64,000 nt of DNA. It comes from Fimbriimonadaceae bacterium (GTDB lineage Bacteria > Armatimonadota > Fimbriimonadia > Fimbriimonadales > Fimbriimonadaceae). How positions within the stretch are numbered: position 1 is the stretch's first letter; each line of letters starts with the position of its first letter. The notes under the pieces were generated by a model. That model saw only the letters and a list, made by a program, of their open reading frames with translations. It was not told the origin of the DNA and made no database searches. The position numbers were made by a program, and so were the translations under genes. Shown piece by piece: positions 35,154 to 40,963 of this stretch. The DNA is taken from the NCBI GenBank assembly GCA_019454125.1, contig CP075365.1:924218-988217 (forward strand), given 5' to 3'.

Positions 35154-35564
35154 ATGATCGTGCCGATCGGGCTCTTGGTCGTTAAGTGCACATTCTGTGC
35201 GCTGTTCGCGATCGCTTTCCTCCAGTCAGGGATCGACAAGGTCTCTGACTGGGCAGGGAACTTAGGCTGGCTGAAAGGCCACTTCGAGAAGACGTTCTTG
35301 GCGAAAAGTATCCCGGCCATGCTCGGAGTGCTGACGGTTATGGAACTGTCGACGGGCCTTGCCTGCGCAGGCTCGTTCTTTGCACTCCTCATGGGCATCG
35401 ATACCGTTTTGCCCGTCTATGCGCTGGCCGGCTGTTGCGCCACGCTTCTTGCGTTGTTCTTCGGGCAAAGAATCGCAAAGGACTATGCAGGAGCTGCCGG
35501 ACTGGTCCCCTATATCCTTGCGGCCGGGTTCGGAACTCTAGTGGTCAGTTTCACGCCCACTTAA
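35154..35564 (+). CDS. DoxX-like four-helix membrane protein
   Basis: 136 residues with four membrane segments (VVKCTFCALFAIAFLQSGIDK, IPAMLGVLTVMELSTGLACAG, LPVYALAGCCATLLALFFG and LVPYILAAGFGTLVV). The pattern FAIAFLQSGIDKVSDW resembles the DoxX/DoxD family, whose members are tied to redox or sulfur metabolism. It starts 20 bp after secA and may share its transcript. Confidence 0.65.
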   Translation: MIVPIGLLVVKCTFCALFAIAFLQSGIDKVSDWAGNLGWLKGHFEKTFLAKSIPAMLGVLTVMELSTGLACAGSFFALLMGIDTVLPVYALAGCCATLLALFFGQRIAKDYAGAAGLVPYILAAGFGTLVVSFTPT

Positions 35565-36600: not shown

Positions 36601-36657
36601 CCAGCGAGCAGGCTTTCTAAATAGTCACAGAGCCTCGCGAGGGATAGCCACCGCCCC

Positions 36658-36761
36658 TATCCGACGGAGTGTTCGAGGCTGACTGCGAGAAGCTTTTGCG
36701 CCTCGACCGCGAACTCCATCGGAAGCTCGCGGAAGACGTCTTTGCAGGAGCCGCTGACGAT
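36658..36761 (-). pseudogene. Fragment of the 3' end of sufB
   Basis: 36667-36761 matches 39420-39514 at 93 of 95 bases. On the minus strand it reads [18 protein letters not shown] and on to LEHSVG and a stop, the C-terminus of SufB. The last codons differ only silently from the intact gene (TCC/TCG, GTC/GTA) and the stop is TAG, not TAA. The rest of sufB is missing here. Confidence 0.88.
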
Positions 36762-36945
36762 TCTGTCCGCTCCTGCGCTAATCCTGGTCTAGATCGGACT
36801 TTCCACCCGCACGTAGTCCGCTAAGGCCAGCTCAAGGCGCTTGGCCCCCCGTCCCTCTCCCCATCCGTACGCCGCAATTGGGCCAGGCTCTCCCACAAAA
36901 TTCGCCTTCCCCAGCGGGACCTGAGAATTCTCTTGAAACGGGTTC

Positions 36946-37428
36946 GTGGAGTCGTCCCTTACCCCCGTCGTGAAACAGAAAAAGCTGATCGCTCTCGGAA
37001 TCGCGATCCCCGCCGCAGCTATCTGCTGGGCGCTTTTCCGCCCCGAGCTGCTCTTCGTCAACCAGGAAGTAAACGAGAAACTAGCGGTTGACAAGATTCT
37101 CGCCTCGGGAAGCTTTGACTCGTATGCCCACGAGACCAAGGGCACGGCAAAGTTGGTCGAATCGGACGGAACCCACTATCTTCGACTGGACGGCTTCCAC
37201 ACCTCGAACGGCCCCGACGTCCGCGTCTACCTTGTGAAGGATAGCGACGCAGGAAAGGGCGCGAACGCCGGCAACTACGTCGACCTCGGCTCGATCAAGG
37301 GCAACATCGGATCGCAAAACTACAAGATTCCCTCGACGATTAACCCAGGGGAGATCAAGTCGATCGCCATCTGGTGCAAACGGTTCAACGTAGGATTTGG
37401 AGGTGCGACTCTGACGAAGGCTCAATGA
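36946..37428 (+). CDS. DM13-domain membrane-anchored protein
   Basis: 160 residues from GTG 36946 (GTG 36970 possible). A single helix near the N-terminus (LIALGIAIPAAAICWALF) anchors or exports it. The DM13 domain follows: SGSFDSYAHETKGTAKLVES, LRLDGFHTSNGPDVRVYLV and IAIWCKRFNVGFGGATL, with the near-invariant cysteine. DM13 is proposed to act in redox or electron transfer. It is first of three DM13-like genes that precede an ECF sigma gene. Confidence 0.82.
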   Translation: MESSLTPVVKQKKLIALGIAIPAAAICWALFRPELLFVNQEVNEKLAVDKILASGSFDSYAHETKGTAKLVESDGTHYLRLDGFHTSNGPDVRVYLVKDSDAGKGANAGNYVDLGSIKGNIGSQNYKIPSTINPGEIKSIAIWCKRFNVGFGGATLTKAQ

Positions 37429-37473
37429 ATACCACTCTCGCGACTTGACGTCCATCTAGCACGAACGACCCAT

Positions 37474-37878
37474 ATGCACACCACCACGAAATCCTCACTC
37501 GTCCTTCTCGCCTTGACCACGACCCTATCCGCCTTTGCCGCGAACGACATCACGGTGACGAGCGGCAAGTTCCAGGGCTCGACCAGCCTCTCTGGAACCG
37601 CGTCCGTCGTCGAGCGAAACGACAAGCGGTTCCTCGACTTTAAATGGTCCAAGGCCCCCGTCAAGACCGTAAAGTTTCGCCTAGTCAAGAAAGAATCGCT
37701 CTCGACCGGTGCCTTCCCGACCGGCGTGGAGTTTGTCGAACTTGGCACGACGACCACGAGCGTACCCATCTCCAAGTCGCTCGACGTCTGGCTCTACCGC
37801 TCCGTCGCCGCGATCGACGCCAAAGGCAACGTGATCGCTTTCGCCAACCTCCGCTCGGCCCAAGAGAAGGGTCGCTAG
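37474..37878 (+). CDS. Secreted DM13-like protein lacking the cysteine
   Basis: 134 residues with a signal peptide (SSLVLLALTTTLSAFA). The DM13 pattern is visible (SGKFQGSTSLSGTASVVERN, KRFLDFKW, then VWLYRSVAAIDAKGNVIAFANL), but the IWC motif has become VWLYRS, so the redox cysteine is gone. It lies 45 bp after the first DM13 gene. The 10-bp repeat array follows the stop. Confidence 0.65.
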   Translation: MHTTTKSSLVLLALTTTLSAFAANDITVTSGKFQGSTSLSGTASVVERNDKRFLDFKWSKAPVKTVKFRLVKKESLSTGAFPTGVEFVELGTTTTSVPISKSLDVWLYRSVAAIDAKGNVIAFANLRSAQEKGR

Positions 37879-37910
37879 GAGACACCCGCTAAGGGACCCC
37901 CACCAATCCA

Positions 37911-38040
37911 AAACAACCCAAGACAACCCAAACCAACCCGAACCAACCCGAACCAACCCGAACCAACCCGAACCAACCCGAACCAACCCGAACCAACCCG
38001 AACCAACCCGAACCAACCCGAACCAACCCGAACAACCCCA
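37911..38040 (+). repeat. Tandem array of the 10-mer AACCAACCCG
   Basis: Ten perfect, in-register copies fill 37931-38030. Two diverged copies precede them (37911-37930) and one follows (38031-38040). The array ends 5 bp before ATG 38046. The minus strand reads CGGGTTGGTT and is G-quadruplex-prone. The period equals about one DNA turn. The minus-strand reading frames over it code only repeated VRVGSGWFGL and are artefacts. Confidence 0.97.
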
Positions 38041-38045
38041 ACTCA

Positions 38046-38489
38046 ATGAAACTCAACACGATCACCCTCATTGCCGCTGCTGCGACTCTCTTCGCCGCCG
38101 TCCCGTCCGTTAGCTATGCGAGCTCCGTGCTTGCAAGCCCCTCACCGACCGTTTTCGCTCCGTCCTACCACGAGGCCAAGACTTCGATGTTCAAGGGCAT
38201 AGAAGTCAACAAGGGTCACGCCATGCTCGTCCATAAGGAGAACAAGCATTTCTTAAAGGTCAGCGACGACTTCCAGATTCCGAACTCGCCGGCGCCGCAC
38301 TGGCAGGTCGTCGATTCGATGGGCAACACTTACCTGCTCAACCAGCTGAAGATTGTCGGTGAAAAGACGAACCGACAGATCGAACTCCCCGGCTACATCA
38401 AGGACGTCAAGTACGTGCAGATCTGGTGCTCCTTCGCTGAGGTCCTCTTGGGCGAAGCGTCCTTCGCCGAGGCCCAAAAGGTCAACTAA
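38046..38489 (+). CDS. Secreted DM13-like protein downstream of the repeat array
   Basis: 147 residues with a signal peptide (LNTITLIAAAATLFAAVPSVSYA). The DM13-like core is FKGIEVNKGHAMLVHKEN, FLKVSDDFQIPNSPAPHWQVV and VQIWCSFAEVLLGEASF, with the cysteine kept. No Shine-Dalgarno sequence is seen: the bases before the ATG are C- and A-rich repeat. The ECF sigma gene starts 24 bp after the stop. Confidence 0.72.
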   Translation: MKLNTITLIAAAATLFAAVPSVSYASSVLASPSPTVFAPSYHEAKTSMFKGIEVNKGHAMLVHKENKHFLKVSDDFQIPNSPAPHWQVVDSMGNTYLLNQLKIVGEKTNRQIELPGYIKDVKYVQIWCSFAEVLLGEASFAEAQKVN

Positions 38490-38513
38490 GGGCCTAAGAG
38501 CCACCAAGACGCC

Positions 38514-39023
38514 ATGACTAGCATCCTTGACCGTCGCGAATCCTTCGAACAGGTGGCACTTCGCGAGGTCGAGGTCCTCTACCGCGTGGCAAAACGCCTG
38601 ACACTGAACAGTAACGACGCCGAAGACCTTGTCGGCCAGACGATGCTCAACGCAGCGAAAAACTGGCAGGCTTTCGACGGCCGTCATGCGAGGAGTTGGC
38701 TCATTCGGATCCTCCGGAACGAGTGGAACCAGCTCCTACGCAAGAGAAAAGTGCGCCAAGAGGTCGACATGGAGTCGATCTCCGAGCCGAGCGAAGAGGG
38801 CTTCTGGCAGAAGGTCGAAGTCCGACTGGACGTCGAGACGATCCTGGTCGCGCTTGACACGATCGGCGAGGACTACCGCGCCGCGATCACGCTGTGCGAC
38901 GTCGAAGAGATGGACTACGCCGAGGCGGCCATCGCCCTCGACATCCCCCAGGCGACTCTTCGCACGCGGCTCCACCGCGGGCGCAAGCAACTTCAGGCGA
39001 AGTTGGTGAGTCTTAGACCGTAA
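38514..39023 (+). CDS. ECF-type RNA polymerase sigma factor
   Basis: 169 residues. Region 2 is AEDLVGQTMLNAAKNWQAFDGRHARSWL..ILRNEW (about 35-70) and region 4 is YRAAITLCDVEEMDYAEAAIALDIPQATLRTRLHRGRKQL (about 120-165). ECF factors direct polymerase to small stress or envelope regulons. The next gene is a likely zinc-finger anti-sigma factor. The DM13-like genes just upstream are its likely targets, though no matching promoter pair was identified. Confidence 0.9.
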   Translation: MTSILDRRESFEQVALREVEVLYRVAKRLTLNSNDAEDLVGQTMLNAAKNWQAFDGRHARSWLIRILRNEWNQLLRKRKVRQEVDMESISEPSEEGFWQKVEVRLDVETILVALDTIGEDYRAAITLCDVEEMDYAEAAIALDIPQATLRTRLHRGRKQLQAKLVSLRP

Positions 39024-39039
39024 AATAGGAGAAACGCAG

Positions 39040-39291
39040 ATGAGCTTTCACAAGACAGAAGGGCCCCCCTGCCGGCACATGGAGTCGTTGCTCCAGGAAG
39101 TCGCCGATGGCCACGCGAAGGGCTTGCGCCGATGGTACGCGGTCGCCCACGCCACCCGGTGCGTCCGCTGCGGCTCGTTTCTACAGCGCCTCAGCCTTTC
39201 GCTGCAGGTTCTCAGGGCCGCAAAGCAGTCTTCCGGCGACCCCGAGGCCGTCGATCGCCTGAGCGCAAAGATCCGTTCCCTCTCCAGCTAG
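39040..39291 (+). CDS. Putative soluble zinc-finger anti-sigma factor
   Basis: 83 residues. HATRCVRCG is an HxxxCxxC motif and CRH lies 30 residues earlier, as in ZAS-type anti-sigma factors. There is no membrane helix, so it would sense a cytoplasmic signal, perhaps thiol oxidation or zinc loss. AGGAG lies 8 bp before ATG 39040, a proper ribosome site. The pairing with the ECF gene 16 bp upstream is the main argument. Confidence 0.72.
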   Translation: MSFHKTEGPPCRHMESLLQEVADGHAKGLRRWYAVAHATRCVRCGSFLQRLSLSLQVLRAAKQSSGDPEAVDRLSAKIRSLSS

Positions 39292-39409
39292 CAACGAGTT
39301 TCGCTCTTCCCGAAGCGCGAGTTCGAGTAAGACGCTTTCGACCGGTACGCCCCAGCTAACTTGGAACGTATCAATCGCCATTGCGGCCAGCGCCTGGAGA
39401 ATAGTGCCC

Positions 39410-40963
39410 TTATCCTACCGAGTGCTCGAGGCTGACTGCGAGAAGCTTTTGCGCCTCGACCGCGAACTCCATCGGAAGCTCGCGGAAGACGTCTTTGCAG
39501 AAGCCGCTGACGATCATGTTGACCGCGTCCTCCTCGCTGATGCCTCGCTGGGCGAGGTAGAAGAGCTGGTCTTCGCCAATCTTGGACGTGGTCGCCTCGT
39601 GCTCCATCTTGGCCGTGTTGTTCTTGACCTCGATGTACGGGAACGTGTGGGCGCCGCAACGGTCGCCCATAAGCATGGAGTCGCACACGCTGTAGTTGCG
39701 GGCGCCGTCCGCACCGGCGTTGATCTTCACCAAGCCCCGGTAGGTGTTCTGGCCGTTCCCGGCGCTGATCCCCTTCGACACGATGGTCGACCGGGTGCGC
39801 TTGCCGATATGGATCATCTTGGTGCCCGTATCGGCCTGCTGCTTGTTGGCGGTCAGGGCGACGCTGTAAAACTCGCCCACGCTGTCGTCACCTTTTAGGA
39901 TCACGCTGGGGTACTTCCAGGTGATGGCGCTGCCGGTCTCGACCTGCGTCCACGTGATCTTGGCCCCGCTTTCGCGGCAGATGCCCCGCTTTGTGACGAA
40001 GTTGAAGATGCCGCCCTTGCCGGTGTGGGGGTCGCCCGGGTACCAGTTCTGGACGGTCGAATACTTAATGGTGGCGTCCTTAAGCGCAACGAGCTCGACC
40101 ACGGCGGCGTGGAGTTGGTTCTCATCGCGGCGGGGGGCGGTGCAGCCCTCGAGGTAGCTCACATAAGCGCCCTCTTCGGCGATGATGAGGGTGCGCTCGA
40201 ACTGGCCGGTGTTCTCGGCGTTGATGCGGAAATATGTGGAGAGCTCCATCGGGCAGCGCGTGTTCTTCGGAATGAACACGAACGAGCCGTCGCTGAAGAC
40301 GGCGCTGTTCAGGGTCGCGAAGTAGTTGTCGCTGTAAGGGACGACGGAGCCGAGGTACTCCCGGATGAGCTCGGGGTAATCGCGGATGGCCTCACTGATC
40401 GAGCAGAAAAGCACTCCCGCCTTCTTAAGCTCTTCCTTGAACGTCGTGACTACTGAGACGGAGTCGAACACGGCGTCGATGGCAACGCCGCCGCTAGGCG
40501 GTTGGCCGTTGGCGGTTGGCTGTCCAGCGGCGTGGGCCTCGGCCGCGCCCCGCACGTTCAGCAAGATCTCTTGCTCACGCAGCGGGATGCCCAGCTTCTC
40601 AAACGTGCGGACCAGTTCCGGGTCAGCCTCGTCGATCGAGTTCAAGACCGGCTTCTTTTTCGGCGCGGAGTAGTAGCTGATGGACTGGAGGTCGGGGAGC
40701 TCGTAGCCCACGTTCGGCCACTTCGGATAGGGCATGGTGGCGAGGTGCCGGAACGCCTTCAGCCGCCATTCCAGCATCCAATCGGGCTCGCCTTTCTTGG
40801 CGCTGATGAAGCGGACGGTGTCTTCGCTGAGGCCGGGCGGAAGGGTGTCCGCCTCGACGTCGCTGACGAATCCCCACTGGTACTCCCGCTCGGCGACGTG
40901 CTCTAGAAGGGCGTCGTCGTCCATTCCCTCGGTTTGCTTGTCCAGATGGTCAGAGATCGCCAT
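39410..40963 (-). CDS. sufB: Fe-S cluster assembly scaffold SufB
   Basis: 517 residues, slightly longer than usual (about 470-480). SufB is the scaffold for iron-sulfur cluster assembly. Conserved blocks: [75 protein letters not shown] and [21 protein letters not shown]. An Ala/Pro/Gly-rich insertion ([21 protein letters not shown], about 147-167) is encoded by repetitive DNA. sufC and sufD are not adjacent. TATAGT lies 10 bp before the ATG. A 95-bp copy of its 3' end lies 2.7 kb away. Confidence 0.96.

Follow-up and report, generated by a model that had tools for sequence, protein, structure and literature searches.

A conserved ECF sigma factor operon with exported DM13 proteins in the Fimbriimonadales: a candidate envelope oxidation response

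Introduction

DM13 domains occur in both bacteria and animals, and their chemistry is predicted only. Among bacterial DM13 proteins we found one that has been studied functionally, SaeP of the SaePQRS locus of Staphylococcus aureus. It is a surface lipoprotein complexed with SaeQ and the kinase SaeS, and the system to which it belongs reacts to respiratory state (PMC7189620). There the DM13 protein is genetically tied to a two-component regulatory system with a DoxX partner. In the eukaryotic Knickkopf family, a tandem DM13 (PMC4140639) is found in an exported and anchored protein that also has a DOMON domain and acts in the cuticle; Knickkopf itself is an organizer of the insect cuticle.

Two further groups of systems are close to the locus described here by virtue of their regulators. 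In the disulfide stress systems SigR/RsrA and SigH/RshA, an ECF sigma factor lies beside a small soluble anti-sigma factor of the ZAS type. Of the soluble anti-sigma factors of class I, about 72% have a zinc motif; the zinc site can be purely structural, as in the ZAS protein RsiW (PMC7406223). The ECF16 systems that respond to hypochlorite, SigF/NrsF-MrpX and BcrS/AbcS-BcrXQP, are autoregulated and place an exported methionine-rich protein under the control of an ECF sigma factor and its anti-sigma factor; their operon includes MsrPQ. Exported methionine-rich proteins under ECF control act as hypochlorite scavengers, and the ECF16 promoter reads (T/C)GTAAC-N17-CGAA (PMC8315932).

Here, we analyze a 64,000-nucleotide stretch of the chromosome of a Fimbriimonadaceae bacterium (the window), in which five genes, called A to E below, encode three exported proteins of the DM13 type, an ECF sigma factor and a small soluble protein. 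The unit shares with SigR/RsrA and SigH/RshA the juxtaposition of sigma factor and soluble ZAS protein, and the spacing of the zinc ligands in E is identical to that of RsrA. It differs from both in carrying exported DM13 proteins, in its promoter (GGAAC-N17-CNTT), in showing no wider regulon in our search, and in that E has the three cysteines of the zinc site only. Like the ECF16 systems it is probably autoregulated by an ECF sigma factor with an anti-sigma factor, and in the relatives, though not in this genome's copy, it includes an exported protein with a methionine-rich arm; its promoter is another one, and the arm is joined to a DM13 domain. The resemblance to SaePQRS lies in the genetic link between a DM13 surface protein and a regulator; however, the regulator in the unit is an ECF/ZAS pair, and a tandem DM13 anchored by a transmembrane helix is found where SaePQRS has a lipoprotein. 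The tandem arrangement in an exported, anchored protein recalls Knickkopf, but no DOMON-type partner accompanies it. We found no description of the A–E unit in the literature that was searched, as the first-pass annotation of this DNA had supposed.

Results

The operon and its conservation

All five open reading frames were found at the positions first assigned to them, on the forward strand, with a single correction. Gene A, a membrane-anchored DM13 protein, most likely begins at the GTG codon at 36970 (36970–37428) and not at 36946 as had been annotated, because its relatives begin there and because the −10 element of the promoter lies between the two positions. It is followed by B (37474–37878), an exported and degenerate DM13 protein; C (38046–38489), a secreted protein with a single DM13-like domain; D (38514–39023), the ECF sigma factor; and E (39040–39291), the soluble ZAS-type protein.

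Of the 113 genomes of the order, 24 have a relative of C. When 291 genomes across the phylum were scanned, relatives of C came only from the same family, with the exception of a distant pair of matches from one other family; a contig scan with D returned one distant sigma factor of the Phycisphaerae. The complete series A-B-C-D-E, in the same order and on the same strand, is carried by 17 genomes of 8 genera, all of the same order (G000, G061, G012, G010, G018, G019, G020, G023, G033, G044, G052, G077, G078, G085, G086, G087 and G092, the last with a break in its AB frame close to the end of a contig); the gene order is thus not a peculiarity of one genome. Incomplete versions also occur: G016, G025 and G027 have AB and C without a sigma factor, G034 has C on a separate contig, and the contig of G045 ends after C. 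The genes that flank the unit are not shared, except between close sister genomes, and A–E is therefore regarded as self-contained. Judged by this comparison, A–E is a real, conserved and self-contained ECF/ZAS operon with putative DM13 effectors.

The DM13 proteins

Most of the relatives have A and B fused in one open reading frame of about 290–350 amino acids that encodes a tandem DM13 protein; A and B are two intact genes in G000 and G012 only. A scores 91.6 bits with the DM13 profile PF10517, for which the cut-off is 25; a sequence search of the PDB gave nothing meaningful for it. The protein has an N-terminal transmembrane helix and conserved residues His54 and Cys136; in the alignment of its family this histidine and cysteine are invariant, the Cys, Asn and Asp are retained in 24/24 members, and an SNGPD motif is conserved.

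B and C have N-termini that resemble signal peptides, as judged by reading of the sequence and by hydropathy. Taken singly, B of this genome has no Pfam DM13 match, and C scores 16 bits, under the cut-off of 25. Their relatives are more informative: 8 of 22 relatives of B match DM13 at E ≤ 0.1, four of them above the Pfam cut-off (32–39 bits), and 16 of 24 relatives of C match it weakly (best E 4e-4). At the level of family profiles, hhalign aligned B with A at 98.3% probability (E 1e-12) and C with A at 96% (E 4e-8); controls with shuffled columns gave 1% or less. The assignment of both proteins to DM13, which had been made from the single sequences, is thus upheld for the families. So is the contrast in their cysteines: the DM13 cysteine is found in 24/24 A, in 24/24 C, where it follows a Trp or Tyr, and in 0/24 B. 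These profile matches and the state of the cysteine identify B as a degenerate and C as a divergent homologue of DM13. B is present wherever A can be read in the unit.

Several other DM13 arrangements were encountered. In G081 (L226, 2296–5190) a tandem DM13 protein with a cysteine in both domains is accompanied by an ECF sigma factor, a zf-HC2 protein and a lactonase-type beta-propeller; its tandem is likely an intermediate toward the cysteine-less B. At L228 (254–1351, reverse strand) a TMEM175-like potassium-channel domain is joined to a C-terminal DM13 (PF06736 and PF10517). G129, from a different family of the phylum, encodes a secreted DM13 protein whose arm is rich in methionine and lysine, followed by an anchored DM13 protein (L225, 539–1816); the contig has no sigma pair.

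Predicted folds and the methionine-rich arm

A structural model of the B domain (37540–37875) had a pLDDT of 84. Foldseek returned no match with E under 0.001, and the matches listed by VIA-align were Cu,Zn-SOD and its chaperone, with Z up to 9.7 over 101 residues. The mature part of B contains neither histidine nor cysteine; a SOD-like function was dropped, and we read the likeness as a common barrel topology, which may be informative on the DM13 fold at large. The model of C (pLDDT 64) retrieved generic beta-sandwiches only.

A distinctive trait of the C family lies ahead of its domain. In the relatives, methionine makes up 20.8% overall of the 24 residues before it and 2.3% of the remainder of C, and these arms often include histidine. 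In G017 and G024, two near-identical genomes, an MsrB gene (SelR, 1.5e-48) adjoins the unit on the opposite strand. None of the 24 genomes with C has PF00174, the periplasmic MsrP family, which is present in 18 of the other 89 (p 0.012, a value that ignores kinship), whereas the ECF16 operon includes MsrPQ.

The composition of these proteins invites another reading, namely that the unit serves the handling of copper or soft metals in the envelope: the Met/His arm and cysteine of C and the histidine and cysteine of A would bind Cu(I)/Cu(II), and the ZAS protein would sense thiol stress induced by metal. The frequent histidines of the arms, the invariant residues of A and the SOD-like barrel of B all agree with such a role, but the domain with that barrel lacks both histidine and cysteine once mature, the neighborhood of the unit has no conserved copper gene, be it for a transporter, an oxidase or a chaperone, and CusF matched a single relative of C, weakly (E 0.047). 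We consider copper handling unlikely.

The sigma factor and its partner

D is an ECF sigma factor, as had been annotated: PF04542, PF08281 and TIGR02937 (74 bits, above its cut-off) all match, it has sigma70 regions 2 and 4 only, and its best relatives in the PDB are SigE and SigH of Mycobacterium tuberculosis. E has 83 residues and no membrane helix. The soluble HxxxCxxC protein first noted beside the sigma factor proves to be a ZAS-type anti-sigma factor (C11...H37xxxC41xxC44), and the pattern C-x25-H-x3-C-x2-C is invariant in 18/18 members of its family; the numbering of the four ligands equals that of the zinc ligands of RsrA (PMC4960319). With an Hx3Cx2C motif, a fourth ligand upstream and a position directly after the ECF gene, E has the attributes of ZAS class I. 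Taken alone, E of this genome falls below the curated anti-sigma cut-offs (NF052368, 14.9 bits against 50); in the family, the NCBIfam model antisigmaE is matched by 14 of 18 members (best 2e-6), the RsrA and ChrR models match more weakly, and the anti-sigma factor DdvA is matched in the PDB (E 0.0046). Redox sensing by E is likely, and no more than that, because the zinc site of some ZAS proteins is purely structural.

The solubility of E also bears on whether the anchored DM13 proteins could be envelope sensors or matrix proteins, with redox chemistry secondary. The complex of SaeP with a kinase and the tandem DM13 of the cuticle protein Knickkopf provide precedents, and the retention of B despite its lack of cysteine fits such a role. 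Yet the soluble E has no membrane contact through which an outside signal could be relayed to D, and the genes next to the unit include no conserved one of the SaeQ/DoxX type; a sensory or structural role appears improbable to us. A small hydrophobic DoxX-like open reading frame does follow secA in the window (35154–35564); it was rejected as a SaeQ-like partner, having no Pfam match and no conserved place in the unit.

D–E pairs also occur with no DM13 gene beside them, in G046, G015, G030, G057, G009, G021, G066 and others, and the neighbors of these stand-alone pairs are varied, with no theme in common. The tree of the sigma genes is poorly resolved, module-linked and stand-alone members being intermixed in it. 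In G017 and G024, the place of D–E after AB-C is taken by a non-orthologous pair of an ECF sigma factor and a zf-HC2 protein, which shows that sigma/anti-sigma pairs are exchanged around the same effector genes.

A promoter at the first gene

A common promoter motif before the DM13 genes, sought after the first-pass annotation, is present ahead of the first gene of the operon. In 23/23 readable loci an element of the GGAAC/GAAAC/GGATG type lies between −32 and −36 relative to the first start codon. The strict form of the motif occurs in 14/23 loci as compared with 1.4% of 500 control starts (Fisher p 8e-17; the loci are partly related and hence not independent), and the loose form in 23/23 as compared with 3%; the control starts come from the same loci, and the strict figure is to be preferred, the loose pattern having been set post hoc. 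In 18 of 20 nonredundant loci a TT is found 19 nt after the GGAAC-type element, which gives the consensus GGAAC-N17-CNTT. In this genome the −35 element is TTGAAAC (36933–36939) and the −10 element CCTT (36957–36960), both on the forward strand, and the start codon is only 9 nt past the latter. Since this distance leaves few untranslated bases, we infer that the operon mRNA is leaderless or nearly so.

The fixed position of the promoter at the first gene implies autoregulation by the sigma factor, and on these grounds A–E would be a single autoregulated operon. The promoter is kept at L075, L076 and L078, where no sigma gene is linked. Similar GGAAC-type/CATT motifs, recognized by eye upstream of the stand-alone D genes at L082, L087, L091 and L092, are consistent with autoregulation. 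A search with the promoter pattern covered eight genomes; in the one studied here it revealed no excess (5 occurrences against 7 for the reversed-pattern control), and the regulon therefore yields no functional hint. An element resembling TTTGAACCTAAA, in either orientation, lies some 50–100 nt before AB at L062, L064, L066, L069, L071 and L081, and reversed at L076, L077 and L078.

The stand-alone D–E pairs could be taken to mean that this is an ordinary autoregulated ECF operon with a larger regulon elsewhere, to which the DM13 genes are incidental neighbors. The strictly collinear order in 17 genomes whose flanks are not conserved, a promoter located at AB and not at D, and the occurrence of DM13 genes close to three distinct types of ECF/ZAS pair make this, in our judgment, a very improbable account.

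Peculiarities of this genome's copy

The copy in the window departs from its relatives in three ways: the split of A and B, shared with G012; the loss of the methionine-rich arm of C, which retains one methionine in that stretch; and an array of about 14 copies of a 10-bp tandem repeat (37902–38042, forward strand) in the spacer between B and C. This spacer is 167 nt long, compared with mostly 26–60 nt in the relatives, which often have an AGGAAA-type ribosome-binding site there; C of this genome has the array in its place. The array had at first been counted as a member of the unit. None was seen in the relatives, and it was discarded both as a member and as a regulatory or functional part.

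The unit is flanked by two copies of the 3′ end of sufB, the only two in the genome, both on the reverse strand: a duplicate of 114 nt (36653–36766, 94% identical) and its counterpart in the intact gene (39406–39519). G061 and G012 have sufB well away from the unit or on another contig. Given this flanking duplicate and the separation in the two relatives, the duplication is likely the scar of the unit's arrival at the end of sufB or of a local rearrangement around it.

Discussion

The operon, its conservation, its promoter, the zinc-ligand pattern of E and the homology of the DM13 proteins are established by comparison of sequences, which gives the regulatory side of the model good support. 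The first-pass annotation had suggested an envelope redox stress or electron-transfer system; of that proposal, the conserved unit with its own ECF sigma factor, the zinc/thiol partner and the common promoter are upheld, and redox stress as the signal and electron transfer by the proteins stand as predictions. The best reading, in our opinion, is an autoregulated operon that responds to the oxidation of thiols or methionines in the envelope, and we give it about an even chance of being correct. In the unstressed cell the predicted zinc-binding E would hold D. Oxidation of its zinc-thiol site, or loss of the zinc, would be the presumed signal that releases D, and the free sigma factor would then transcribe its own operon from the GGAAC-N17-CNTT promoter at the first start codon. 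The products would go to the envelope: AB, the anchored tandem DM13 protein (two separate proteins in this genome), and the secreted C. Together they would most likely buffer, repair or relay the oxidation of thiols and methionines outside the membrane.

A more specific form of this reading can be offered only tentatively, and we rather doubt it. The unit would then represent a new class of self-contained operon for the defense of the envelope against oxidants, in which an RsrA-like E with D, a leaderless promoter, AB and the C with its methionine arm act as a sacrificial or relay system of thiols and methionines.

In this operon DM13 is linked with an anti-sigma factor of the zinc-thiol type, with a promoter of defined form and with a methionine-rich arm, which provides a concrete setting in which the domain can be tested; both the oxidant or metal that induces the operon and the role of the invariant cysteine are accessible there. 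Should the oxidant-defense class prove true, it would give DM13 its first defined physiological role in free-living bacteria.
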